Assembly (NCBI GenBank): GCA_010672965.1
Contig: JAAHFN010000022.1
Location: forward strand, 124,001 to 188,000
Direction: 5' to 3'
Length of the DNA: 64,000 nt
Source: Oscillatoria sp. SIO1A7
GTDB taxonomy: Bacteria > Cyanobacteriota > Cyanobacteriia > Cyanobacteriales > Laspinemataceae
This document shows positions 1-15,757 of the stretch, piece after piece; the first letter of the stretch is position 1; the number at the start of each line of letters is the position of its first letter. Made by a program: the position numbers and the translations under genes. The notes under the pieces are model-generated. The model had not been told where the DNA came from and did not search any database. It worked only from the letters and a program-made list of their open reading frames with translations.

Positions 1-1
1 G

Positions 2-94
2 ATAGCAGGCTTTCCAGCCAAAATCATTGGGAATGCACCTCCTAATTTTACGAAAGAGGAGCTATTAAAAATGAATCTTGCATACTGGGGCTAA
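2..94 (+). CDS. C-terminal end of a hexapeptide-repeat acyltransferase (partial)
   Basis: The window opens inside a reading frame that ends at the TAA of 92-94. The visible 30 residues start with AGFPAKIIG. The pattern G-x-PAK-x-I is typical of the last coil of left-handed beta-helix acyl/acetyltransferases (CatB, CysE and sugar O-acetyltransferase type). The acceptor cannot be told because the catalytic part lies upstream of the window. The identity rests on this one motif. Confidence 0.5.
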   Translation: MAGFPAKIIGNAPPNFTKEELLKMNLAYWG

Positions 95-105
95 GAGGCT
101 GATAA

Positions 106-363
106 TCAATTTAAATAAAGCTCTAGATCGGTCGGGGCACCGTTAACCTCTAATTGCAGACCGCCTACATCTAAATCAAATGTCTGATTGGCGGGCATAT
201 AAAATTCTATGCTCAAACCATGCAAATTAGAAGAAAGCGAATTGGGAATTTGATGCAATATTGAGAACTGTGCCCATGAAGTGTTGAAAGATACCCGCCC
301 TATCTCAGTCCAAGGATGCCCTCCACCTGAAATAATGACACCCAGAAAAAAACCGGTTGTGTC
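106..363 (-). pseudogene. C-terminal remnant of a secreted beta-sandwich-like protein
   Basis: On the minus strand a frame of about 85 codons opens after a stop at 364-366 and ends at the TGA of 106-108. It has no start codon. The translation looks like genuine protein: it contains VSFNTSWAQF, GLSIEFYMPANQTF and LDVGGLQLEVNG, a hydrophobic/polar alternation like the last strands of a carbohydrate-binding jelly-roll. Upstream lies repeat-rich DNA, so I read this as the tail of a gene cut off by rearrangement. A frameshifted gene is possible. Its function is unknown. Confidence 0.4.
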
Positions 364-540
364 TTATTTTCTCTTTGCGCCGCTATCCAACTTACTCTCG
401 CTCGTTTTCCCGATTTTAATGCGTAAAACCTTTTCCCTATTTCACAGTCTTAAGCTGCTTTGGTATTGCAATAACATCTTCCAAACTCGATTAAAAAGCG
501 AGCCTCCTTTGCGGAAAAGCTTCGCTTACGCCTCAATTAC

Positions 541-660
541 TAGAAAAGACAGATATTACGATCGCCCGCGCTTATTCCCAAACAAAATAGCGATCGCTTT
601 CTGGGAAAAAAGTCTATCGCTCTCTGGTGGGAAAAAGGCGATAGCCCGTGACTTCGTAAA
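541..660. repeat. Short run of HIP1-type minisatellite units
   Basis: A few imperfect copies of the unit GCGATCGC-TTTCTGGG-AAAAA occur here, two with the HIP1 core mutated. The run joins directly to a segment that is duplicated near 5.1 kb. No gene is supported between 364 and 890: the open frame on the plus strand is made of repeat and of the insertion at 697. Confidence 0.7.
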
Positions 661-696
661 TTACCAATTATCGGCTAGGTCTCCTTCAGGGAATCA

Positions 697-823
697 GGGA
701 GCATTTCAATTTCGTATCTAGCCGCCTAACGCCTATAGGCGTAAGCCCCGCCTCCCAGGCGGCTGGCCCGGCTACACAAACAAAGCCCTCCGGGCTGTCC
801 CGTTACAAAAGTGAAATGCTCCC
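697..823. mobile_element. MITE-like element, family 1, copy 1
   Basis: A 127-bp element has imperfect terminal inverted repeats (GGGAGCATTTCA at the left, TGAAATGCTCCC at the right). It is flanked by the direct repeat AGGGAATCA at 688-696 and 824-832. The homologous segment near 5.13 kb has AGGGAATCA only once and lacks the element, so this is an insertion with a 9-bp target duplication. It has no coding capacity. Related copies are at 41207 and 63717. Confidence 0.85.
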
Positions 824-890
824 AGGGAATCACATCGTATTTTTCTCCTTTAACCTTAAATACTCTAGTAATCTCTTAATTTTTAATGTT

Positions 891-1151
891 TCAATTTTTA
901 TAAACATTTTTTCGATGCTTACAATGAAGCAATAACACCAACAATTTTTTATCATTGATTTCGTAGCGCACGCGATAATCACCAATGCGGAGCCGATATT
1001 CATTGTCACAGCCTTTTAACTTTACAGTTCCGGGAGGCCGAGGGTCTTCACCCAATGGCGTTATTTTTTCAATAATTCGCTCTTGGATATCTTCGGGCAG
1101 ACTATCTAGTTGCTTTTGCAACGGTTTCGGAACTATTACGGTATAAGTTAT
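891..1151 (-). pseudogene. Decayed duplicate of the RelE-type toxin gene
   Basis: This reads as an 86-residue RelE/ParE-superfamily toxin almost identical to the one at 5193-5453, including QLDSLPEDIQERIIEKITP and RLRIGDYRVRYEI. The codon matching the ATG start of the other copy is ATA here (1151-1149). One base change turned the overlap ATGA into ATAA, which keeps the antitoxin stop but removes the toxin start. The only in-frame ATG lies upstream, out of frame inside the antitoxin remnant, so normal translation is unlikely. Confidence 0.8.
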
Positions 1152-1222
1152 GGAGTTTTGTTCTTCCGAGAAGCAATATATCGATCTAGGGTTTGATAGT
1201 CTCCTGCTTGGTAGGCAGTACG
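1148..1222 (-). pseudogene. Truncated antitoxin tail
   Basis: Only the last 24 codons of the antitoxin found at 5450-5710 remain (residues RTAYQAGDYQTL onwards, ending KNKTP). Identity with the intact copy stops abruptly at 1222, where the sequence GGATTTGATATTA begins. That sequence matches the terminus of MITE family 2, so insertion or deletion at that element probably removed the 5' two thirds of the gene. Confidence 0.75.
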
Positions 1223-1238
1223 GATTTGATATTAACAA

Positions 1239-1406
1239 CAGCTAAAACAACGCGGAAAGTAGCCTAAATTATCAACTACAGTGGATCCTAGCTGTATGAA
1301 TTAGTCAAAAGCTATATTTTATAAGGGGCCAAATACTCGGAGACCAAGGCCAATATTTTTAGTAAAGCGCAAATCTGTTGGCCGGGGATCCAGCTATCGC
1401 GACTGA
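1239..1406. other. Intergenic DNA, nothing recognised
   Basis: Between the truncated antitoxin and the RNA locus I see no open frame, repeat or terminator that I can support. Confidence 0.4.
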
Positions 1407-1483
1407 AGCTGTAATATTAGGCTATAGGACAATGCAGAAACTGCGCGAAGTGCAGAAGGCGCAAAAAATTTTTCTATTTAATG

Positions 1484-1512
1484 TTGACATTCGAGAAAAA
1501 CGATGCTAAGAT
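1484..1512 (+). promoter_or_regulatory. Sigma-70-type promoter of structured RNA locus 1
   Basis: A perfect -35 box TTGACA (1484-1489) is followed after exactly 17 bp by TAAGAT (1507-1512). The same layout, with a weaker -35 box TTGTTT and the same -10, stands before the paralogous RNA at 49.65 kb. Transcription should start near 1519. Confidence 0.7.
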
Positions 1513-1518
1513 GGATTT

Positions 1519-1814
1519 ATAGCTCCCGAAGCTTTGGGGTGCATAAATAGGGGCCACGGCTAATAACCGCGACCCATTAGAACTGGAAACATCTGTCAAA
1601 ACTAGCAAGGAGGTATTCTCAGTCAAACAATTTCTCCCTTAAAAAACCGGCCTGCGGCGGGGTAAGCCTTGGACTCTCCGGCAAGTCGGCCGTTGGCACG
1701 CCCCCAATCGCAGCGTCCGGCCGGGAAGATATCCCACCCAATAGCCCGCCGATTTCGCACCCTGTCGCGAGCAGCGGGTGGGTTTTCCTTGGGAGAAATT
1801 CGCTCTTGTTTTTA
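1519..1814 (+). ncRNA. Structured non-coding RNA, paralogue 1 of 2 (family not recognised)
   Basis: About 296 nt, similar over its whole length to 49654-49937, while no open frame is shared. Visible structure: AATTTCTCCC (1629-1638) pairs perfectly with GGGAGAAATT (1791-1800) and closes the 3' half. CCGGCC (1647-1652) pairs with GGCCGG (1719-1724). A 3' hairpin is built from CCCACCC and GGGTGGG. A purine box AAGGAGG precedes the closing stem in both copies. The 17-bp-spaced promoter directly upstream supports transcription. I do not recognise it as tmRNA, 6S, RNase P or SRP RNA. An IscB-associated (HEARO/omega) RNA is a possibility I cannot confirm. Confidence 0.6.
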
Positions 1815-1829
1815 GTGCAATACAGGACT

Positions 1830-1983
1830 TATATCAAATCCGCTTCCGCTGTTCCATGAATACCCCCATAAATACCTTTGGGGCAATTCCCAAGCGAGCG
1901 ATACGACCCCGGCCGCCCAAGACCAACCGGGGCGCTTCCGGGGGACCCCTAGAAACTGTGGCTGTTTAACCGGATTTGATATA
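1830..1983. mobile_element. MITE-like element, family 2, copy 1
   Basis: Inverted termini TATATCAAATCCG and CGGATTTGATATA bound about 154 bp of non-coding DNA. The same termini bound 50200-50294. Single ends are seen at 1222 and 63684. Open frames across it are short and not conserved. Confidence 0.6.
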
Positions 1984-1986
1984 ACT

Positions 1987-2055
1987 CAGAAACCGGGTTT
2001 TTATCAGACATATCGCTTAGCAGGCGTATATTTGTCTAAAAAACCCGGTTTCTTT
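1987..2055. repeat. AAACCCGGTTTCT palindromic repeat
   Basis: AGAAACCGGGTTTTT and its complement AAAAAACCCGGTTTCT enclose a loop containing TATCGCTTAGCAGG. This can fold into a hairpin. Copies in this window also lie at 2207, 2759, 5857, 15461 (three tandem copies) and about 16620. Confidence 0.8.
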
Positions 2056-2068
2056 GCTTGGCAGAAAT

Positions 2069-2206
2069 GGGCGATCGCTTTCTGCTGGGAAAAAAGGCGT
2101 AAGCGAAGCTCCTTCTACGGAGGCTCGCTTTCTGGGGAAAAAGGCGTAAGCGAAGCTCCTCCTACGGAGGCTCGCTTTCTGGGAAAAAAAGGCGATCGCC
2201 CCGACC
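2069..2206. repeat. HIP1-type minisatellite
   Basis: Units of GCGATCGCTTTCTGGG plus an A-run alternate with GTAAGCGAAGCTCC-TACGGAGGCTCG modules, which are short palindromes. There is no coding sequence. Confidence 0.7.
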
Positions 2207-2272
2207 AAGAAACCGGGTTTTTAGGAGAATATTGGTTGGGTGACAGAGATTCTATAAAGAAACCCGGTTTCT
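2207..2272. repeat. AAACCCGGTTTCT palindromic repeat
   Basis: AGAAACCGGGTTTTT and AAACCCGGTTTCT enclose a loop different from the other copies (contains GGTTGGGTGACAG). Downstream to 2544 are three more HIP1 sites and no supported gene. Confidence 0.7.
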
Positions 2273-2544
2273 CATATCCCCAAAAAAGCGATCGCCCACC
2301 TAAAAACTTCGTTCGTAGTAAGGACTTTAGTTTGACCAACCCATCGCCCTCTCAAAAGCGATCGCCGACTAAAAGATATCTTTGGGGATATTTACCGCTT
2401 ACTGCCCCCCATTCATAGGCTCGCCCTTTTTCGTTTCAACTCGCGACACCCACACCTTGCTGTTGTGTGCTATGCTAAAAAGCAGCTATTTTACGCTGAT
2501 TTATGGTGCCAGTCAAAACTCTCATCTAAGAATTAGAGAATAAG

Positions 2545-2811
2545 ATGAACTCAGGAACTTATTCCGAAACAAAATTAATCAAAAAAATCCGCAACTTACC
2601 TCCCGATAAAATTACAGAAGTAGAAGATTTTGTGGACTTCCTGTTAGCGAAAAGTGACAGGATTCTTTTAAGTCGTGCGGCGGCAAAACTTTCGGAAACC
2701 GCTTTTGCCAAGATTTGGGATAACGATGAGGATGCTGACTATGACCAGCTATATAACTCAGAAGCCGGGTTTTTATCAGACATATCGCTTAGCAGGCGTA
2801 TATTTGTCTAA
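2545..2811 (+). CDS. Small DUF2281/VapB-like antitoxin with repeat-derived tail
   Basis: An 88-aa protein. Its first 69 residues look like the cyanobacterial antitoxins that start with an LxxKIRNLPPDKxxEVEDFVDFL helix and end in an acidic DNDEDADYDQL. That is where such proteins usually stop. Here the frame runs on for 19 residues (YNSEAGFLSDISLSRRIFV) encoded by the palindromic repeat at 2759-2825, which seems to have removed the native stop. The gene starts with ATG 24 bp after an in-frame TAG. No PIN toxin follows; the next gene is a HicB-like antitoxin. An orphan antitoxin is the simplest reading. Confidence 0.65.
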   Translation: MNSGTYSETKLIKKIRNLPPDKITEVEDFVDFLLAKSDRILLSRAAAKLSETAFAKIWDNDEDADYDQLYNSEAGFLSDISLSRRIFV

Positions 2812-2825
2812 AAAACCCGGTTTCT
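2759..2825. repeat. AAACCCGGTTTCT palindromic repeat inside a gene end
   Basis: This copy is nearly identical to 1987-2055, with AGAAGCCGGG at the left arm. It supplies the last codons and the stop of the antitoxin gene at 2545. Confidence 0.75.
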
Positions 2826-2841
2826 TTGCTTGGCAGAAATG

Positions 2842-3003
2842 GGCGATCGTTTTCTGGGAAAAAAGGCGATCGCTTTTTGGTGGGAAAAACAGGCGATCGC
2901 TCTCTGGGAAAAAAGGGCGATCGCTTTCTGGGGAAAACAGGCGATTGCTTTCTGGGAAAAAAGGCGATCGCTTACCCAACTCGCCTCAAAAGCGATCGCG
3001 CTT
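2842..3003. repeat. HIP1-type minisatellite
   Basis: Seven GCGATCG(C/T)-centred units with TTTCTGGG and A-runs lie between the antitoxin and the next gene. Open frames through it only reflect the repeat periodicity. Confidence 0.8.
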
Positions 3004-3052
3004 CGGTCGCTTCTACTGTATAATGACAGCAGCAGAACTGGCAGGAAAACCC

Positions 3053-3262
3053 ATGCAATACAAAGTCAGGCTGAAAAAAACAGATCAGGGGTACGCGGTC
3101 TGGTGCCCTTATCTACCGGGCTGTTGCTCTCAGGGTGATACAGAAGCCGAAGCTCTGGAAAACATCAAAGATGCACTTAAATCCTACCTGGAGGTAGTTG
3201 ACGAATTAAATAAGGATGAGAATTATCGTTATGTAGAAGTTGGAGAAACGATTTATGCCTAG
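3053..3262 (+). CDS. hicB: HicB-like antitoxin
   Basis: A 69-aa protein with the HicB fold signature: YKVRLKKTDQGYAVWCPYLPGC, then TEAEALENIKDALKSYLE. It would bind a HicA mRNA-interferase and repress its own operon. The ATG at 3053 is preferred over the one at 3023: it is preceded by AGGAAAA and family members start at MxYKV. The partner gene starts inside the last codons (3255) but is broken, so this antitoxin may be orphaned. HicB before HicA is a known order in cyanobacteria. Confidence 0.75.
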   Translation: MQYKVRLKKTDQGYAVWCPYLPGCCSQGDTEAEALENIKDALKSYLEVVDELNKDENYRYVEVGETIYA

Positions 3263-3345
3263 CGTCCCAGGGGTAAACCATCTGCGTGCTGTCAATGATG
3301 CATGAAAAAGCCGTATTTTCGACCGTTCGCAGCTCATATAATCTG
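3255..3345 (+). pseudogene. Frameshifted hicA toxin remnant
   Basis: An ATG overlapping the hicB end by 8 bp begins MPSVPGVNHLRAV, the usual start of the HicA family that pairs with this HicB type. It meets TGA at 3303-3305 after 16 codons. In the -1 frame the text continues EKAVFSTVRSS, which resembles the expected continuation (EKAGF-x-VR-x-G). A frameshift followed by further decay explains this. The His of the HicA active site is not present. Confidence 0.6.
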
Positions 3346-3409
3346 TATAATTCGCGACTAGCAAATGCCGCAAATGTGAAAATATTTAAAATGAAGTCAA
3401 GGGGCATAT

Positions 3410-3631
3410 ATGCCAAGGAAAATTCGCGCCTACAAAGCTGAGTTGATTAAATTGGGTTTTGTGCAGCGGCGCGGAAAGGGGAGGCATGAAAACTGGAAGC
3501 ATCCGCAACTGCAACTGTTGATTACGATTGCCTTCAAAGACGGTGAGGATACACCGTTGTATCTGGAGAAATTATTAAAACAAGCGATTCAAGAGTTGGA
3601 AACAAGTGCCGGGGAGGAGTCAGAGGCATGA
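3410..3631 (+). CDS. hicA: HicA-type mRNA interferase toxin
   Basis: A 73-aa protein of the HicA/YcfA double-stranded-RNA-binding-like fold. It has MPRKIRAYKAELIKLGF, then RRGKGRHENWKHP, which carries the GxGxH-type active-site histidine, then a strand LLITIAF and a DGEDTPLYLEKLLKQAIQ helix. It should cleave mRNA and be neutralised by the HicB encoded next. The genes overlap by 4 bp (ATGA at 3628-3631), which indicates translational coupling. No strong Shine-Dalgarno sequence is visible. Confidence 0.8.
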   Translation: MPRKIRAYKAELIKLGFVQRRGKGRHENWKHPQLQLLITIAFKDGEDTPLYLEKLLKQAIQELETSAGEESEA

Positions 3632-3846
3632 ATTACCGCTATAGTTTATTAATTGAATGGTCCCAAGCGGATGGACTGTATTTGGTAACGTTGCCAGAGT
3701 TTGCTAAATTGGCGATGCAGCCAAGCACTTATGGGAAAACTTATGAAGAAGCGATCGCCAATGCCCAAGAAGCTATTGCCAGCTATCTTGAGTATTGCCA
3801 AGAAGAAGGTTTGATCCCTCCAAGTCCGACGAAGGTTGCAGGCTAA
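3628..3846 (+). CDS. hicB: HicB-type antitoxin
   Basis: A 72-aa protein with the HicB core: YRYSLLIEWSQADGLYLVTLPEF, then GKTYEEAIANAQEAIASYLE. It overlaps the upstream hicA by 4 bp. It lacks an added ribbon-helix-helix domain, so DNA binding may be weak or absent. It is the antitoxin of the intact pair; the HicB at 3053 is a different subtype. Confidence 0.8.
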   Translation: MNYRYSLLIEWSQADGLYLVTLPEFAKLAMQPSTYGKTYEEAIANAQEAIASYLEYCQEEGLIPPSPTKVAG

Positions 3847-3870
3847 CTAAAAGTCGATCGCTATTGACTG

Positions 3871-4284
3871 TATGCAGGGCGATCGCTTTCTGGGCAAAAA
3901 GGCGATCGCTCTCTGCTGGGAAAAAGGCGATCGCTTTCTGGGGAAAAAAGGCGATCGCTTTCTGTTGGGAAAAAAGGGCGATCGCTCTCTGGTAAAAAAG
4001 GGCGATCGCTTTCTGGGCAAAAAGGCGATCGCTCTCTGCTGGGAAAAAGGCGATCGCTTTCTGGGGAAAAAAGGCGATCGCTCTCTGGTAAAAAAGGGCG
4101 ATCGCTCTCTGCTGGGAAAAAAGCGATCGCTCTCTGGTAAAAAAGGGCGATCGCTCTCTGGGCAAAAAGGCGATCGCTCTCTGGGAAAAAAGGGCGATCG
4201 CTCTCTGCTGGGAAAATAGGCGATCGCTTTCTGGGGAAAAAAGGGCGATCGCCTCCCCACTTCTGGTTAAAAGGCGATCGCTGT
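3871..4284. repeat. Largest HIP1 minisatellite array, about 17 units
   Basis: About 17 head-to-tail units of 22-27 bp follow the form (G)GGCGATCGC-T(C/T)TCTG-(variable)-GG-A(4-6). Variants (GGGC, GCTGGG, GGGG, GGTA) recur in the same order, so blocks of several units were duplicated together. The array sits between two converging genes. All long open frames here are repeat artefacts. Confidence 0.9.
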
Positions 4285-4312
4285 CTAAACGACAATAGGT
4301 TATCGATTTATC

Positions 4313-4756
4313 TTATAAAATCGTCAAATAGGTATCGACAGACTCTTCGGGTAAAACTTTTAAGGTTTGGTTGCGTAAATCGGGTTCCAGCCCCAAGGCT
4401 TCAAGGGGAATTACTCCCACTAACGGATCCCGCCCTCCTGGAAGTTCTAAGCATTCAAAAGTTCCTTCTCGACCGAGCAAAGAAATTTTCGCATCTTGAA
4501 AAATGCGGGCTTTACTGATTCCGGTGGCCGTTCCCACATCTACTTCTTTGAGGAGTTCGAGTCCGAGTTTAGCAATGAGATCGGGAGGTAGGCACAGTGT
4601 TGTTGCTCCCGTATCCACTAAAACATTATCTATGGTGATGGAACGCACTTCCTCTTGAGGAATCAACCCGCGTGCAGCAGCAGATTGGTCGGCACGGTTA
4701 GTAATCGTTAAGGTAGTGAGGATTTTGCCCATTGGGGTCTCTGTTAGAGTTGGCAT
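4313..4756 (-). CDS. Retroviral-type aspartyl protease family protein
   Basis: A 147-aa protein with the clan AA motif VLVDTGATTLCLP (catalytic DTG at about residues 48-50) and a later hydrophobic-G pattern (LVGVIPLEALGL). A single DTG per chain implies an active homodimer. Cyanobacterial relatives of this size are common and uncharacterised. No signal peptide is seen, so it should be cytoplasmic. MPTLTETPMG offers two starts; the internal ATG at residue 9 also fits. It stands alone between minisatellites. Confidence 0.7.
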   Translation of the reverse strand: MPTLTETPMGKILTTLTITNRADQSAAARGLIPQEEVRSITIDNVLVDTGATTLCLPPDLIAKLGLELLKEVDVGTATGISKARIFQDAKISLLGREGTFECLELPGGRDPLVGVIPLEALGLEPDLRNQTLKVLPEESVDTYLTIL

Positions 4757-4864
4757 AGCTGTATTCCCTGTTACTCTACCTTAATTATGACAAATTTTTG
4801 GCGCTGATGGGGCGATCGCCACCTTTCCCTCGTAGGGCGTCCCGTCCGCAAAAGTCTATTGCCA

Positions 4865-5092
4865 AGTAAAATAGCGATCGCTCTCTGGGAAATGGGAAAA
4901 AAGCGCTCTCTGGGGAAAAAGGCGATCGCTCTTTGGTGGGAAAAAGGGCGATCGCTCTCTGGGTGAAAAGGCGATCGCGATCCTTGTCGTAAAAAGGGCG
5001 ATCGCGATCCTTGTGGGAAAAAGAGCGATCGCGATCCTTGTGGAAAAAAGAGCGATCGCTCTCTGGGGAAAATAGGCGATCGCCCGTGACTC
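4865..5092. repeat. HIP1 minisatellite array
   Basis: Eight or nine units occur here. Three in the middle have the altered core GCGATCGCGATCCTTGT in place of GCGATCGCTCTCTGG, a local variant amplified in tandem. The right edge runs into the segment duplicated from 640-690. Confidence 0.85.
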
Positions 5093-5192
5093 CGTAAATT
5101 ACCAATTATCGGCTAGGTCTCGTTCAGGGAATCACATCGTATTTTTCTCCTTTAACCTTAAATACTCTAGTAATCCTTGAATTTTTCATGTT

Positions 5193-5453
5193 TCAATTTT
5201 TATAAACATCTTTTCGATGCTTACAATGAAGCAATAATACCAACAAGTCTTTATCATTGATTTCGTAGCGCACGCGATAATCACCAATGCGGAGCCGATA
5301 TTCATTGTCATAGCCTTTTAACTTTACAGTTCCGGGAGGCCGAGGGTCTTCACCCAATGGCGTGATTTTTTCAATAATTCGCTCTTGGATATCTTCGGGC
5401 AGACTATCTAGTTGCTTTTGGAACGGTTTCGGAACGACTACAGTATAAGTCAT
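5193..5453 (-). CDS. RelE/ParE-superfamily toxin
   Basis: An 86-aa protein with the RelE fold: TYTVVVPKPFQKQLDSLPEDIQERI, then DPRPPGTVKLKG, RLRIGDYRVRYEI and LLVLLLHCKHRKDVY. The conserved basic residues (R-x-R in the RIGDYRVRY strand, H-x-K near the end) fit a ribosome-dependent mRNA endonuclease or a gyrase-targeting ParE. Which one cannot be decided. It overlaps the antitoxin gene by 4 bp (ATGA). A decayed duplicate is at 891-1151. Confidence 0.85.
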   Translation of the reverse strand: MTYTVVVPKPFQKQLDSLPEDIQERIIEKITPLGEDPRPPGTVKLKGYDNEYRLRIGDYRVRYEINDKDLLVLLLHCKHRKDVYKN

Positions 5454-5710
5454 GGAGTTTTGTTCTTCCGAGAAGCAATATATCGATCTAGGGTTTGATA
5501 GTCTCCTGCTTGGTAGGCAGTACGAGATTCCTGGATTTCAGCAAGGACTGCTGGATCTTCCTCCAAGCAGTCTTCTTCTAATTGGGCAATTTCTGTTTCT
5601 AGAAGCTGGAAAAGCTGAATTTTATCTTCTATCGTTAGGGTGGCGATCGCATTGACTAGGGAATCAAAGGGAATTTGGAGTTGAATTGTCGGTTGTGTCA
5701 TCGTGGGCAT
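5450..5710 (-). CDS. Antitoxin of the RelE-type pair
   Basis: About 86 aa. It starts MPTMTQPTIQLQIPFDSLVNAIATL and has a helical, acidic middle (LETEIAQLEEDCLEEDPAVL) and a basic end (RYIASRKNKTP). It matches the cyanobacterial antitoxin type placed directly before RelE toxins. Three in-frame starts are possible: TTG at 5713, ATG at 5710 and ATG at 5701. None has a clear ribosome site. The gene is first in the operon, as is usual for antitoxins. Confidence 0.75.
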   Translation of the reverse strand: MPTMTQPTIQLQIPFDSLVNAIATLTIEDKIQLFQLLETEIAQLEEDCLEEDPAVLAEIQESRTAYQAGDYQTLDRYIASRKNKTP

Positions 5711-5765
5711 CAATTAAGTCGTATTTTTTGATTATATCAAGGGAAAAGGCTATTCGGGGCCGGAA

Positions 5766-6340
5766 GAAAGCGATCGCCCACCCAAAAAAGCGATCGCCCC
5801 CCATTAGCAGTAAGGACTTTAGTCTTACAAACTCTTGCGCCCTCTCAGGGGACGCGCGAAACCGGGTTTCTTTTCCGGTGACACAGTTAACTTCCGATCT
5901 CCACAGAAGAAACCCGGTTTCTTTGCTTGGGCGGCAAGGGGCGATCGCTCTCTGGTGGGAAACAGGTCGATCGCTTTCTGGTGGGGAAAAAGGCGATCGC
6001 TCTCTGGTGGGAAAAAGAGCGATCGCTCTCTGGGAAAAAGAGGCGATCGTTCTCTGGGTGACAAAGGGCGATCGCTCTCTGAGAAGGCGATCTCTCTCTG
6101 GTGGGAAACAGGTCGATCGCTTTCTGGTGGGGAAAAAGGCGATCGCTCTCTGGTGGGAAAAAGAGCGATCGCTCTCTGGGAAAAAGAGCGATCGCTCTCT
6201 GGGAAAAAGAGGCGATCGTTCTCTGGGTGACAAAGGGCGATCGCTCTCTGAGAAGGCGATCGCTCTCTGGGGAAATAGGCGATCGCTTTCTGGGTAAAAA
6301 GGCGATCGCTTTCTGGGTAAAAAGGCGATCGCTATTTATA
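5766..6340. repeat. HIP1 minisatellite array with a duplicated block
   Basis: More than 20 HIP1-centred units occur here. A block of about 130 bp (from GGTGGGAAACAGGTCGATCGC to CTGGGTGACAAAGG) occurs at about 5955-6070 and again at about 6098-6240, showing a higher-order duplication. An AAACCCGGTTTCT palindrome (5857-5925) is embedded. No gene is supported from 5714 to 6403. Confidence 0.85.
5857..5925. repeat. AAACCCGGTTTCT palindromic repeat
   Basis: GAAACCGGGTTTC and GAAACCCGGTTTC arms enclose an unrelated loop. It lies between HIP1 units. Confidence 0.7.
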
Positions 6341-6403
6341 AATACCAAGCTTTACCTGGAAAAGGGCGATCTATTTATAAACCTAAGTTACACGATTTAC
6401 TAC

Positions 6404-9400
6404 TTACCGCAAAGGAATACTCACCTCACTGTCTAACTTTCCCAATATTGTTAAACTCGGATTGCGATATGGTTTAAATTTGAAACTATCTAAGCCTGAT
6501 TTTTCAACGAGATAGCTTAGAAAGTGTAGTGCTCCTTGTAGAACATGATTTGCGTCTGGCAATGTCAACCCTGCTAAGGCAACAAAACCAGAGACGCTTC
6601 GGCTAATAGCTGCCTCAACATCAGCCGGATTTTTTAGGGTTTTTCCCTCTATCTTACCACCGAGTGCTTCACGGATAAATGTCTTGACATTGTCCGAATA
6701 AGAAGTCTCGTCATATTTGCGGATTGCACTGGCAATAGACCCTCTTCGACCAGAGGAGGAGTTAAGTGCAGCACCAACAACAACGGCAGCAATATCGGCA
6801 GAATAATCTGATTCAGAAGCCATTTGATCTAGAGCAGTATTAAGGTTGGTGAAGCGGCCCTCGCCGTAAGCTATAACAGCTGAGCCTATATCTCCAGCCC
6901 ATGAAGTCCAGTCACCGCTCGCATTACCGAGCTGATAGGGGTGCATGACTTGATCGGATAAAGATGCAATGAAGTGACCAAAATCGGTGACTTGACCGCT
7001 TAACAAGGTTGTACCATTAAGCTGATTTCCCAGGTATCCAGGGTTGCTCAAGTTTGTTACTATTGTCCACTTTCCGCTGATATAATCTTCGCGAGTATAA
7101 CCTCGAAGAGTGTTAGCAATTTGGTGAGCTGATTTTCCAGTATTGCGAGACTCAAACTCTAAAATAAACTGCAATTCTTTATATGGGTAGGGAATTGCCT
7201 CGTTTTCTCCGTTTGTCTTGTTGTGAGCAATTCGTCCTCGTTCAAATTCAGCCCAAATGGTAACGCCATCAGGATCGTGCCATTCTGCTTTAGTTGGCAA
7301 ACCCAACCAACTATTTGCAGCACCCATGTTTTCATAGAAACTCGCGATGCTTCCCCAAGTAGCAGTGGAACTTATAGGCGGACTCGACCCATTATGAATC
7401 CGGGCGTTACCGCCCGATCCAGAAAAGCCCTGCCAAACGCCTTTAGTTCCCGTGCTTGAGGAAGTAAAAGGAGTTTCGTCATTGGTGGGAAATCCTAACT
7501 CTCCCCAATAGCCGCCCCAATGCTCGAATTCGCGTAGATTGTCACCATGTACCCAAAAAGCAGTACCCGAGCCATCTTTCAGAGATAGTAGTCGTTTGTT
7601 TCCATTGAAGTGTTTGAATTCCTGATACCAGCCACTGCCATTATCTACTTTAATGTATTTGGGAGAACCAACCGGGTTCCCGACAACGCCAGTGCCGCCT
7701 GCTCGTTGAATTGCAGCTTGTTTAGCTAGCTCAAACTTGGATCGTGGGTCAGAGGTATTGGGCTGAGGGTTAGGAGTCGTATTTCCGGTATTGGCGACTC
7801 CAGTATAGACGCCCTTTTCAAATAGCAGACCTTCTTCGCTGCGCCGCCGCACTAAACCGGGCAGCTTCCGACCGCCCGCATAGACCCAGCGACTCAGTTC
7901 GTAAGGAACCGCATCGTACTCGCCTTTATTCAATCGTGCGAGCAGACTAGATTTTTGGAGATTTCCAGCACCGAGATTAAAAGTAAAGCTAACTAAAGCA
8001 TCAAACTGATGCTGGTTGAGCGGCACTTTAACCAAACTCTTCACGGCTTGGACTGCCGTATTGGCGTCGGAGCGCAGGAGTTCCAAAGCCCGTTGCCTGC
8101 TTATACCCTGGCGAAACTCAGCAGATTCGCTGCCATTGCAAGCACCGTGATGGACTAGATGGCCGTGTCCGATCGTGCAGTGGCCGGCTGGATCGTTGTA
8201 CAAACTCAACCTCAGACCCTCGTGGTTAGCAATAAACTTGAGTCCGGCATCGCTAATTGTCGAAGGCGGACTGCCCGAATTGCCATTAGAGGGAGGTGGG
8301 TTAACAGGCCGACCCGTCCCAGTTTGATAGCTGACTGGCAGATAAACCGATTGACCTACTTTTAAGTTTTGTGCTTCCGCAGAAGTAAACGTAGTGCCAT
8401 CAGCTTTCATAATTTCCCGCCAGCGATCGCCATCTCCCAAGAACCGCTGCGCAATACTCCACAACGTATCCCCCGATTTGACGATGTACTGCATCTGTTC
8501 GCCGGGAATCGCAGCAGGTTCGTTAAGCGAAGACTGCGGCGATCCGTGAATGAGGGTAGCAGAAATCCATTGGTTTGTTCCGGCAATTTTGTACCATTGG
8601 TCGCTTGCCGTTCCCAAACTGGGATAGGAGATAAACTCGCCCGTTGCCGACTCCTCGAACGTCAGAACATCGCCGTATTTTGCCGAACCAACAATCGCAT
8701 TGCTCGTACTTGGACCAGAACGCAGATTAGCACCCCTCGTCGCAATCATTCGCCCCGTAAAGGTTCCCGCAGTCGAGCCGCCGCCGGGATTACTCGGTTG
8801 AGAACTACCATTTGCATTTTTCAGCTCCCAAAACGACTTAATCGGGTTGAGAGTAGCGTTACGGACAGTATCGAGATTTGCACTCTGCGAACTGCGGTAG
8901 TTTGGTCCCGCTTGCACTTCTAAATGTAAGTGACTGCCAACGCTGCCAATTTTGCCAACAACCTCTCCGGCTTCGATACGACTGCCGATAGGACGATCGA
9001 TGCTTCCGAGATGACCGTAGATCCAGAGTTTGCCATCGTCGCCGCGAACGCCGACAAAGTAGTCGCCAGTCTTATTTTGAATCATTGTCGTCGTACCACC
9101 GACAACAGCTTTTACTGGCTCCCAATTTGGCGTATCGATATCAAAACCAGAGTGCCATTTACCGATTTCCTTATGGTAGCCCGGATCGAGCAAGTAGCCT
9201 GCTGTTACCGGATACCGCTTGCCAAACAAAACTTGAGACAAATCGGTGTAGATATTGCGAACCGACTCGGGGGTCAGATGCCGTTCGTCTCGGTAGTCTG
9301 GCCAGCCCACATCAAAGCGAGTGTTATCCTTCGTGTACTCATTCCACTGACTGTCGCTAAGGGATGCTAAATCAGGATAGTAACCCGGATTAGGGGCTGG

Positions 9401-12400
9401 TGCAGGAGTTGGATTGGGGTCTGGCGTAGGATCGGGAGATGCACCAGCCATTTCCGTGCGAGTCGGGCCGTCACCATAAACTATTTTCCCGTTCTCGAAG
9501 TTCTGGATAATGACACCATTACCGATCCCGATTTCGCCACTTGTCGGAAAGCCAAGACGACCGTTTTCTCCGCCTTCTCCATTTAGATAATGACCGCCAA
9601 TGCCACCAAACAATGGGAAAACACCATTCGACGATTTGATAATCGCTCCACCTTGGAAGTTTTGACGTTGGCCGCCGTTCGTATCATAGCGATCGGATGT
9701 AGGATAGCCCAAGATTTCCTCAGCACCACCCGTATCGAGGAACTTATTCCAGAAGTCACTGCCAACCCAATAAGAGAGATCGTTGGCATTGGACTTCATA
9801 ATTGCGCCCCGGCCTTCGGAACCTCCAGAAAAGTCCTGGGTATAACCATTTGCCCAAGGATGAACGTTATTGGTCGGCGAACCCAAACGGGACGAGCCAC
9901 CATTGCGATCGAATGTACTTATGTAAGTTTGATGGGTAGAAGTGCCATCGTAACCGACAGTGTTATTAAGGTCGGGTGGCGGAGGTGGAGCCGGAACCTC
10001 ATAGGGAACCAAAATAGTATTCCCTGCATAAATTTTGTTGGGATCGGCAATACCATTGCGTTGAGCTATAAAGTTGTAGTAGGGCGCAGACCCATTCCCC
10101 ATTGTCCGCAAGGCAATTGTGCTAAGGAAATCGCCGGACTTAATCGTATAGCGTTCCCACTCATAATATTTGCCCATGAACTCAGTGGCGACTGCCCGTT
10201 CCCCTGGCGTTACCGTTCCTTCGCCACTCCAAGTATCGGGAATCCAACTTGAAGGTGCAAAGTGTTCTTCCGGTTCTGTCACTTTAGCCAAATGCACCGC
10301 TGCTGCCATATTCAGCAACCCCGCGCCCGTCTCGGCATCCCAATTGGGAGTTTTCAGGTCGGTAGCCGTGGACTTAAGAAGCTCGATAACTTGGCGATAG
10401 CTCAAATCGGGATTTGCCGCCCAAACTTGAGAGGCCGCACCCGTAACTTTGGCCGCTGCCACGGAAGTACCCGCCATCGTGCCGACTCCATCGCCGGTGG
10501 TAGATAACTCTGGATATTCAATTGTTCCGCCAGGAGCCATAATATCCAGACCTTGACCGTAACTGGAATAGTCCGCTCGGTCGTAAGCCTTCGAGAGTGC
10601 TACTGAATCGTTAATTCGTTCGGCAGAGCCAGCAGTAATAATATTGTCAAACTCTTGCGAAGCCTGACCCAAAACCGACATCACGCCGCCATCGTTACCC
10701 GCAGCAGCCACAATCAGCACGTTATGCTGGCGCGCATACTCGATCGCCGCTCGTTCTTGGGGCGTAAACTCGTAGCGCGTCGTAACGCTGCCATCGGGAT
10801 TAGTCTGAGTCAAATCCAAGCTGAGATTGACAATAGCATTCGGCTGCTCGGACTCCCGAACTTGCTGAACGAATTCCACCAAAGACTCAGCCCATTTGCC
10901 AGAACCAACGGCTCGACCCGCCCAAATCGGCGCTTCATTATTAATGCCATCAATGCCAATCTCGTTATCCTGCTTGGCTGCAATAATTCCCAAAACATGG
11001 GTGCCGTGTTCGTTCCCTTCGCCAGCTTGCAAAGTAGGATCGGTATCTCCATCCACCCGGTCTTCACCCCAGGTAATCCGGGAATAATCAATATCGGGAT
11101 TATCTCCAGCAAAGCCCGTATCGATAACTCCAACTAAAGGCTGAGAAGCTTTAGGAAAATGGAACTGCTCTGGCGGCTCCACTGAATAAGGAGTTACAGA
11201 CTCAACCAAAGTTGCCTCGCTTGACTCTGACTCTACAGAATTCTCCGATGCCTCCGATGCTACAGTCGCGCTGGGTAGAGATGGCTCTGCTGGCGACTCG
11301 CTAGCTGGCTCGCTAGATTCCGCCGGTGCAACGGTCTCGCCGGTCTCGCTGGCAACAGATGGAGATTGCGAATTATCCCCCGTTTCTGCTGGCGCTTCCT
11401 CTACTACTTCTATTTCTTCGACTGCTGGCGACTCGGCTGGCGAATTATCCTCTGTTTCTGCCGGTGATTCTTGTGCCACTTCTCCCGGCAGCGATGGAGC
11501 CGGTTGGTTGTCAACCGCTACAACTTCGTCAACTGTCTCTGGCTCTTGAGCCTCTTCTCCAGAGTCGCTAACATCGCTTGGGCTCTCTTCTACAACCGCA
11601 GCAGTTTCCTCAGAAGGCTCCTCGCTATTTTCCGCCGCCACCTCGGTTTCGGGTGCCGATTCTTCTTCTGCCTCATCGGCGCTATCTTCTACAGCAAGAT
11701 CGCTTTCTTCGGCAGAATCGCTACTTTCCTCTGCTACTTGCTCTGGTTCGTCGGCAGCACTATCGTTTTCTTCGGCAGAATCGCTACTTTCCTCTGCTAC
11801 TTGCTCTGGTTCGTCGGCAGCACTATCGTTTTCTTCGGCAGAATCGCTACTTTCCTCTGCTACTTGCTCTGGTTCGTCGGCAGTAACATCGCTTTCCTCC
11901 GCAGAATCGCTACTTTCCTCTGCTACTGGCTCTGGTTCGTCGCCAGTAACATCGTTTTCCTCGGCAGAATCGCTTGCATCTGCAGCATCCGCAGAATCTG
12001 CCCCATCGCTAGCTTCTGACTCTGGCGTAATGAAATCAACTGGGATTAGGTCTTCTTCGGGAATGTCATAGACAGTTTCCTCGTCATAAACCGTTTTTTC
12101 TGGCTCGGAATTTTCTGCCGCTATTTCATCGGCTATTTCTTCCGTAGCGGCGATTCGCGAATCGTCCCCCTCTGTATCCTCAGCGTTTTCTGGCTCGGAA
12201 TCTTCTGCTGCTATTTCATCGGCTATTTCTTCCGTAGCGGCGATTCGCGAATCGTCCCCCTCTGTATCCTCAGCGTTTTCTGTCTCGGAATTTTCTGCCG
12301 CTATTTCATCGGCTATTTCTTCCGTAGGAGCGAACGGCCGTTCGCCCCTACCCTCTGCATCGTCAGCGTTTTCTACCTCTGTTTCCGACTGAGTTTCCTC

Positions 12401-15403: not shown

Positions 15404-15460
15404 CATGCTATTAGGGCCTTACGGTTTTGTGAGGGGCAGGCGAGGCGATCGCCCGTGACT

Positions 15461-15757
15461 CAGAAACCGGGTTTTTATCAAAAAATCTCGCTTACCAGGC
15501 ATACATTGTCTAAAAAACCCGGTTTCTTTGCTTTGGGAAAACGGCGATCGCCCGTGATTCAGAAACCGGGTTTTTATCAAAAAATCTCGCTTACCAGGCA
15601 TACATTGTCTAAAAAACCCGGTTTCTTTGCTTTGGGAAAACGGCGATCGCCCGTGATTCAGAAACCGGGTTTTTATCAAAAAATCTCGCTTACCAGGCAT
15701 ACATTGTCTAAAAAACCCGGTTTCTTTGCTTTGGAAAATAAAGGCGATCGCCCCTGG
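15461..15757. repeat. Three tandem 99-bp units with AAACCCGGTTTCT palindromes
   Basis: CAGAAACCGGG starts at 15461, 15560 and 15659, so the period is exactly 99 bp. Each unit holds the palindrome, a TTACCAGGCATACATTGTC loop and a HIP1 core (GGCGATCGCCCGTGATT). The units are almost identical, so the expansion is recent. The stretch 15404-15783 holds no gene. Confidence 0.9.

Follow-up and report, generated by a model that had tools for sequence, protein, structure and literature searches.

HIP1 is among the most over-represented octamers known in bacteria, and its function has been a puzzle since the 1990s. In cyanobacteria it is known as dispersed sites, whereas in the DNA considered here the identical octamer, GCGATCGC, is the core of tandem arrays. 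How did these arrays arise, and do they tell us anything about what HIP1 does? The main text of one paper on the site calls its significance little known, gives its recorded links as those with GATC/CGATCG methylases and with site-specific recombination and excision, and does not contain the words tandem, cluster or array (PMC4390886); the link to site-specific recombination and excision also appears, as cited, in PMC9239245. In the open-licence literature, mostly its titles and abstracts, I found no description of HIP1 arrays linked with toxin-antitoxin cassettes.

By the window I mean the whole 64-kb stretch of DNA that was analyzed, positions 124001-188000 of contig C98 of its genome (G000, 9.08 Mb in 182 contigs). 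The host is a cyanobacterium of the family to which Planktothricoides belongs. C-codes denote contigs of this genome, G-codes other genomes and L-codes individual stretches.

HIP1 in head-to-tail units

There are 131 HIP1 octamers in the window, far more than expected, since 100 dinucleotide shuffles average 1.49; 52 of them fall in bases 1-6400 and 79 in the remaining 57.6 kb. Those first 6.4 kb contain five arrays on the same strand and one remnant (Table 1). Segmentation of the window gives a unit of the form GCGATCGC-TYTCTGG(TGG)-A-run-G, repeated head to tail, well within the 10-100 bp of minisatellite units. Its core, HIP1-(N)YTCTG, occurs 33 times on the plus strand of bases 1-6500 and not once on the minus strand, and a single 48-bp step in the spacing is seen where the HIP1 of one unit has degraded. 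The first-pass annotation had described a minisatellite of 22-26 bp in five arrays within 6.4 kb. The arrays are real and its positions for arrays 2, 3 and 4 hold, but the unit ranges from 19 to 27 bp and the remnant makes a sixth. Of the HIP1 sites in its array at 2069 just two are intact, and what it took for an array at 5766 is a pair of sites with other spacers (5770 and 5790), outside the fifth array.

Table 1. Arrays, repeats and genes in the first 6.4 kb of the window
Feature	Position	Strand	Basis
Array 0, remnant of 2-3 HIP1 units, adjoining the second ParE copy	590-645	+	segmentation, repeat comparison
Second ParE copy, 96% identical to 5125-5529	823-1226	-	
Hairpin segment and start of array 1; 95.9% identical to 2751-2868	1979-2099	+	
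Array 1, HIP1 units; hairpin element fills the HIP1 position in two	2071-2199	+	segmentation
SDR-like hairpin element in HIP1 position, first copy	2096-2128	+	
SDR-like hairpin element in HIP1 position, second copy	2143-2175	+	
DUF2281 gene between arrays 1 and 2	2545-2811	+	Pfam
Second copy of hairpin segment, continuing into array 2	2751-2868	+	
Array 2, directly 5' of HicB-like antitoxin gene; units to 2973, further HIP1 at 2992	2843-2999	+	
HicB-like antitoxin gene; C100-homologous block begins at HIP1 2992	3023-3262	+	
HicA toxin gene	3410-3631	+	
HicB-like antitoxin gene	3628-3846	+	
Array 3, 17 intact HIP1; HicB and aspartyl-protease genes converge on it	3879-4281	+	
Aspartyl-protease-like gene between arrays 3 and 4; HIP1 56 bp 5' and 32 bp 3'	4313-4756	-	
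Array 4, between ParE gene and aspartyl-protease gene	4874-5083	+	
ParE toxin gene between arrays 4 and 5	5193-5453	-	
Putative ParE antitoxin partner, without Pfam match	5450-5713	-	inferred from overlap
Array 5, with a duplicated block inside (95 bp exact)	5941-6332 (start about 5940)	+	

In array 1 the only intact sites, at 2071 and 2192, enclose two HIP1 positions taken by a hairpin element, GCG-TAAGCGAAGCTCC..GGAGGC-TCGC. The element sits after the GCG of HIP1, and I liken it to SDR5 from the published description, which places the insertion point of that repeat between the third and fourth nucleotides of HIP1 (Elhai, PMC4390886). Array 4 has three units with a different spacer, GATCCTTGT. 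Far downstream, at 15444-15753, lies a HIP1-bearing tandem repeat of another kind, 3.1 copies of a 99-bp unit with HIP1 and a AGAAACCGGGTTT hairpin.

That the arrays grew by duplication is plain. Array 3 contains an exact internal repeat of 82 bp (3878/4001) and array 5 one of 95 bp (5948/6094), the higher-order blocks to which the first-pass annotation drew attention. A 121-bp segment that includes a hairpin with 26-bp arms is duplicated, running into array 1 and again into array 2. The block carrying ParE is present twice (823-1226 and 5125-5529, with no third copy found in a search of the same genome), and its flanks differ in array length, with 2-3 units at 584-692 and about 8 at 5019-5130. 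Copy number thus varies between paralogous copies, as it should in a minisatellite. Because of the exact internal repeats and the unequal flanks of the ParE duplication, I take the arrays to be minisatellites grown by local duplication. To judge from the sequence, they clearly lengthen and shorten by replication slippage, which had been suggested at the outset, or by unequal recombination. They share with bacterial minisatellites, or VNTRs, the head-to-tail units of 19-27 bp, the higher-order blocks and the variable copy number, and they differ in that the core octamer is preferentially conserved and that array loci, as far as examined, cluster next to toxin-antitoxin genes. One copy of the ParE duplication also has a MITE-like insert (window 697-823), with 20-bp terminal inverted repeats that are 90% complementary and a 9-bp direct repeat, AGGGAATCA; the insert is missing from the other copy.

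The arrays are most likely non-coding. Only 48 of the 125 unit spacings below 40 bp, counted over eleven arrays, are multiples of three, too few for coding repeats. In array 3, C103 and three G002 clusters a simple gene caller still finds open frames; the frame at C103 covers 67% of the array and changes twice within it.

Nor is the unit an element dispersed through the genome, HIP1-TYTCTGG having been seen once in 680 kb where 0.56 is expected. The unit core occurs at 40 places in the genome, 31 of them in the window cluster and at 430-432 kb of C150. Arrays of this unit type are present in other genera of the host's family and in G002, a relative assembled as a single contig, which speaks to the suspicion of an assembly artefact, and HIP1 arrays with other spacers are found both in the same genome (C103, 24 HIP1, mostly 27 bp) and in other families. 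HIP1 triples of some kind occur in 34 of 59 genomes, the host's own and coding triples included. In 1.08 Mb of unselected sequence, taken from three genomes, there was no array by a stricter definition. A scan of named genomes for the unit, in which two exact units were required and near records were left out, returned only Planktothricoides sp. SR001, and a unit pair had no exact match in viral contigs. At L123 217-1416 (G035:C186), an array with units of 27-29 bp adjoins a C5 DNA methylase gene.

The genes beside the arrays

The first-pass annotation remarked in passing that the HIP1 sites of the window are packed around toxin-antitoxin genes, and this aside has turned out to be its most informative part, since the remark generalises. 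Thirteen array loci of the host's family were scored outside the window, each with at least three HIP1 18-28 bp apart and judged non-coding, and at nine of them an immediate neighbour of the array carries a toxin-antitoxin Pfam family. The hits in the same genome are DUF3368 (C95), Unstab_antitox (C96), HicB (C100), HigB (C103) and Phd/YefM with ParE (C150). Those in relatives are DUF5615 with RHH (G002), HicA (G003), PIN (G004) and HEPN with Phd (G013). DUF3368, DUF5615, HEPN and PIN I take to be toxin families. The misses are C2, G002 at 2.754 Mb, G007 and G012, the last two having DUF2442 as their only array neighbour.

The five own-genome loci on C2, C95, C96, C100 and C103 come from the triple pattern, among the matches listed, about half of 107 places; that on C150 comes from the unit pattern. 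One array locus was examined per relative (G003, G004, G007, G012 and G013; the number of places is 17 in G004, 35 in G006 and 32 in G008), except for G002, which contributes loci at 0.995 and 2.754 Mb, the former scored once, with two of its four array groups lacking a toxin-antitoxin neighbour. Loci at which a predicted gene spans the entire array were dropped as coding (C57, G006 L144, G008 L145 and the shared g4 locus L134-136/L141, their neighbours scanned in part). The G002 arrays and array 3 were taken as non-coding although the gene caller drew frames across part of them, and so was C103, because its frame shifts twice.

Three controls, drawn from the same genome and one G002 region, give much lower counts. 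Next to 70 intergenic gaps of 150 bp or more, drawn at random from the genome, there are at most 3 toxin-antitoxin genes (Fisher p 4e-7), judged by the best 25 families for 114 genes and all 12 for 53 short ones, with genes of 1800 bases or more left out. Beside 46 gaps at least 1.5 kb from arrays there are at most 4 (Fisher p 3e-5), in seven own-genome regions (one being the first 30 kb of the window) and the one G002 region, mostly array regions. And for 140 tandem arrays without HIP1 there are at most 6 such neighbours (Fisher p 3e-8), an upper bound because the best 25 of 30 families were listed; here 66 short neighbours were scanned, and the sample is common with the random-gap control. 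If C103 is scored by its small second cluster alone, the count becomes 8/13 (p 2e-4 against the weakest control); if the four loci dropped as coding are added as misses, it becomes 9/17 (p 4e-4); with both recounts together, it is 8/17 (p 1.6e-3). Across the three controls, p under the recounts runs from 5e-7 to 1.6e-3. In other families, 3 of 12 non-coding array loci have a toxin-antitoxin neighbour (p 0.04 against a control from another genome), coding loci having been dropped and all but four flanking genes scanned. At the loci examined, then, HIP1 arrays are associated with toxin-antitoxin genes.

The aspartyl-protease gene of the window offers a different kind of neighbour. Six of the 16 copies examined, the window copy included, have HIP1 within 130 bp upstream and 32 bp downstream. 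Elsewhere (L286 9280-11130, G035:C125), an aspartyl-protease-like gene stands in four tandem copies, with a period of 472 bp and without HIP1. A segment of about 440 bp (window 1372-1815) recurs at about 10 further places in the sampled genome with 67-73% identity, and neither it nor the window arrays match Rfam at gathering scores; window 1232-1926 has a 96% copy in C95.

HIP1 at the borders of cassettes

I propose that HIP1 arrays, together with nearby single HIP1 sites, are the recombination borders of small exchangeable cassettes, mostly toxin-antitoxin pairs, and I would give this reading, whose mechanism is one I infer, an even chance of being right. Recombination between HIP1 sites or arrays of the same orientation would insert, delete, duplicate or swap the cassette between them. 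Each joint would be left with a HIP1 or an array, and it is at such joints that arrays would grow. Candidate agents are RecA, short-repeat slippage or a HIP1-specific enzyme. If the proposal is true, it would help explain how toxin-antitoxin genes spread in cyanobacterial chromosomes without a transposon at their edges. Filled and empty alleles at array loci offer a concrete route to testing the role of HIP1 in recombination.

Such alleles exist. As the sequences align, HIP1 stands at the exact border of a variable cassette in three cross-species comparisons, and on one side only in others. The clearest of the three is the array with a DUF5615/DUF433 pair in G002. In G007 (L246) one finds CTCAGAAAT-HIP1-CCCCAATCCC, that is, a left flank, a single HIP1 and a right flank. 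In G002 (L111) the same left flank (90.7% over 709 bp) continues up to HIP1 at 8495-8502, after which come the array and DUF5615/DUF433, then HIP1 at 9546-9553 and the right flank (87.6% over 467 bp). The filled allele is therefore HIP1-cassette-HIP1 and the empty allele a single HIP1. G012 and G003 differ in the interval between a cyclase-like and a phosphoribosyltransferase gene (named from their translations and one weak Pfam match). The flanks are 87% and 91% identical, and in both genomes the left flank stops at a HIP1 and the right flank opens with an array of four HIP1. What they enclose is 0.5 kb with DUF2442 in G012 and 5.8 kb in G003, with HicA, a HicB-like gene (UPF0150), DUF559, a subtilase and more HIP1 clusters. 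In the cyclase-pyrE interval of G007, HIP1 is not at the borders. A group II intron with reverse transcriptase and maturase domains (L244 2844-5159, G012:C187) splits the position of tRNA-Met (CAT), a gene intact in G003. Finally, a Phd/ParE-like block of 0.7-0.9 kb, found in G013 and G006, which belong to two genera, has HIP1 at its left edge in both and, at its right edge, HIP1 in one and the one-off CCGATCGC in the other. The block of G013 is interrupted by an insert of about 140 bp, the copy of G006 came from an unselected stretch, and the toxin, without a Pfam match, matches the ParE of C150.

At some other loci the picture is one-sided. The HicB blocks of C98 and C100, within the one genome, both start at HIP1, and a block of array and DUF559 common to G003 and two places in G002 (87.7-90%) has HIP1 at a single end, its far ends lying away from the site. 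The HicB and ParE duplications, too, have 3' ends that do not coincide with HIP1. In G014 the aspartyl-protease gene has HIP1 on each side, in the order PPIase-HIP1-aspartyl protease-HIP1-DUF5615/DUF433, where its counterpart in G002 reads PPIase-array-DUF559-array-Uma2-array-DUF5615/DUF433. Taking all cross-genome matches, every one of them at a locus chosen for its array or matching such a locus, HIP1 lies within 10 bp of the end in both sequences at 6 of 28 ends (p 1e-4, though the ends are not independent), as compared with 2.8% of the internal positions of all matches, cross-genome or not. Three comparisons are few, and they were found by starting from array loci, where conservation of HIP1 could help alignments to end. 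The evidence on borders consists, moreover, of alleles and not of recombination observed. In plasmids neither the Phd/ParE cassette nor the HicAB cassette nor array 3 was matched, and the DUF5615/DUF433 cassette had a single match of 70%, to DUF433.

It is too much to suppose that HIP1 attracts rearrangement wherever it occurs. G004 and G006, both of genus g5 and one of them a Planktothricoides, are 98.8-99.5% identical over 257 kb and differ by 7 clean indels and 9 divergent gaps, and HIP1 is at 1 of 14 ends of the former and 1 of 18 ends of the latter (2/32), the random rate. Intragenomic matches have HIP1 in both copies at 6 of 132 ends (p 0.17), with no excess over chance. HIP1 is accordingly no general hotspot of indels or duplications. 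Nor is every toxin-antitoxin operon bounded by it: among the seven found in an unselected sample with the queries used, none is flanked on both sides by HIP1 at 100 bp or less, the G006 Phd/ParE-like cassette, one of the seven, not having been scored because its right border is the one-off HIP1. From these results it follows that the border effect, as far as seen, is a property of array loci and not of HIP1 or toxin-antitoxin genes generally. The platform for recombination imagined in the first-pass annotation gains comparative support at particular loci, but not as a genome-wide property.

Integron cassette arrays (superintegrons) hold small genes, often toxin-antitoxin, between repeated sites of one orientation. 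HIP1 arrays likewise stand between groups of one to three small genes, often toxin-antitoxin, but HIP1 is an 8-bp palindrome, often in tandem, whereas an integron has a single attC site per cassette, with a conserved core and a hairpin; the borders here range from one HIP1 to arrays of up to 17, and no integron integrase was found among the array neighbours scanned. A bolder claim, which I think doubtful, is that cyanobacteria of this group have a cassette-exchange system, integron-like without attC, by which they gain, lose and swap toxin-antitoxin and defence-like genes at HIP1, possibly by means of an enzyme that acts on (methylated) HIP1.

Competing explanations

An alternative view is that the arrays are neutral minisatellites. 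Slippage in a genome rich in tandem repeats would have chanced on units that contain a common octamer, arrays and toxin-antitoxin genes would share regions under weak selection, and the HIP1-bordered alleles would be ordinary deletions between short direct repeats. This is a contender to be taken seriously, if somewhat on the improbable side. The arrays did grow by duplication, and indels in general do not favour HIP1. Nor does HIP1 seed tandem repeats in general: outside the window, over 680 kb of the genome, tandem arrays with HIP1 in most units number 3 where 3.2 are expected in non-coding sequence and 7 where 6.6 are expected in coding sequence, just what the density of the site predicts. 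Yet toxin-antitoxin genes are few in the array regions once one moves 1.5 kb away; tandem arrays without HIP1 seldom have them as neighbours; and unselected sequence lacks strictly defined arrays. The units themselves also argue against neutrality. In a wrap-around alignment pooled over eleven arrays, substitutions are found at 31 of 1156 HIP1 positions and at 259 of 2298 spacer positions, and only 9 of 100000 random rotations of an eight-column window have as few distinct variants per column as HIP1. The four window arrays alone give a weak result (6461 of 100000 rotations), HIP1 varies no less than its spacer when array 2 or one of the G002 arrays is considered by itself, and the pooled figure is favoured because the arrays were partly found by exact HIP1. 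With HIP1 kept and the spacer left to drift, the arrays form a natural record, and a setting for the model of methyl-directed repair put forward by Elhai in the main text of PMC4390886.

Could the arrays instead insulate transcription? Adjoining HIP1 copies would pair as hairpins and, with a T tract, serve as tandem terminators between small operons. Arrays 0, 3, 4 and 5 are each 3' of a minus-strand gene, the RNA fold of array 3 has a z of -11.3 against shuffles, three terminator-like sites made of HIP1 pairs occur on the minus strand of arrays 3 and 5, and terminator-like sites of all kinds number 16 in 6.6 kb against 8.4 in shuffles. The mean d-score of most array types, -17 to -56, is also above the -54 to -57 of background HIP1 pairs, with C103, G013 and G035 lower on one strand. 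Arrays fold well, however, because palindromic repeats do so by construction, and nearly every unit has a negative Carafa-type d-score: in arrays 2-5 it is positive in 1 of 31 HIP1 pairs on the minus strand and in 0 of 31 on the plus strand, which does not befit intrinsic terminators. Within the window, the two strands score alike in arrays 2, 3 and 5, and only array 4 does better on the minus strand. By a count from coordinates, moreover, arrays lie on either side of toxin-antitoxin genes, about 7 times 5' and 10 times 3'. Insulation is very unlikely.

That the arrays would be dense docking sites for HIP1-directed methylases or a nucleoid protein seems highly improbable. Every intact unit does have GATC and CGATCG, and the genome has one Dam homologue above cut-off and 15 PF00145 matches, all above cut-off though some are partial. 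There is a precedent in the published description of CRISPR1 of Synechocystis 6803 (PMC6604393), where each repeat of a regular array has a CGATCG core and the methylated sites are clustered. The likeness ends there, the spacers of the window arrays being near-identical repeats of variable length where those of a CRISPR array are unique and constant in length. Against docking, unit length ranges over 19-27 bp and the HIP1 positions of the window arrays show no helical phasing at 10.5 bp, so that the binding of a nucleoid protein in helical register, one of the early suggestions, is not supported; arrays a and d of G002 give nominal p of 0.004 and 0.033 at their best period, uncorrected.

Two loci are of interest for their gene content. 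In G002 (L112 5814-6344), an IS200-like transposase gene (Y1_Tnp, just above cut-off) is found beside HIP1 arrays. On C150, an array of 14 HIP1 and a second HIP1 cluster bracket the Phd/ParE pair, and the array adjoins a pPIWI_RE gene (L071 5866-8532) that is probably defence-related.
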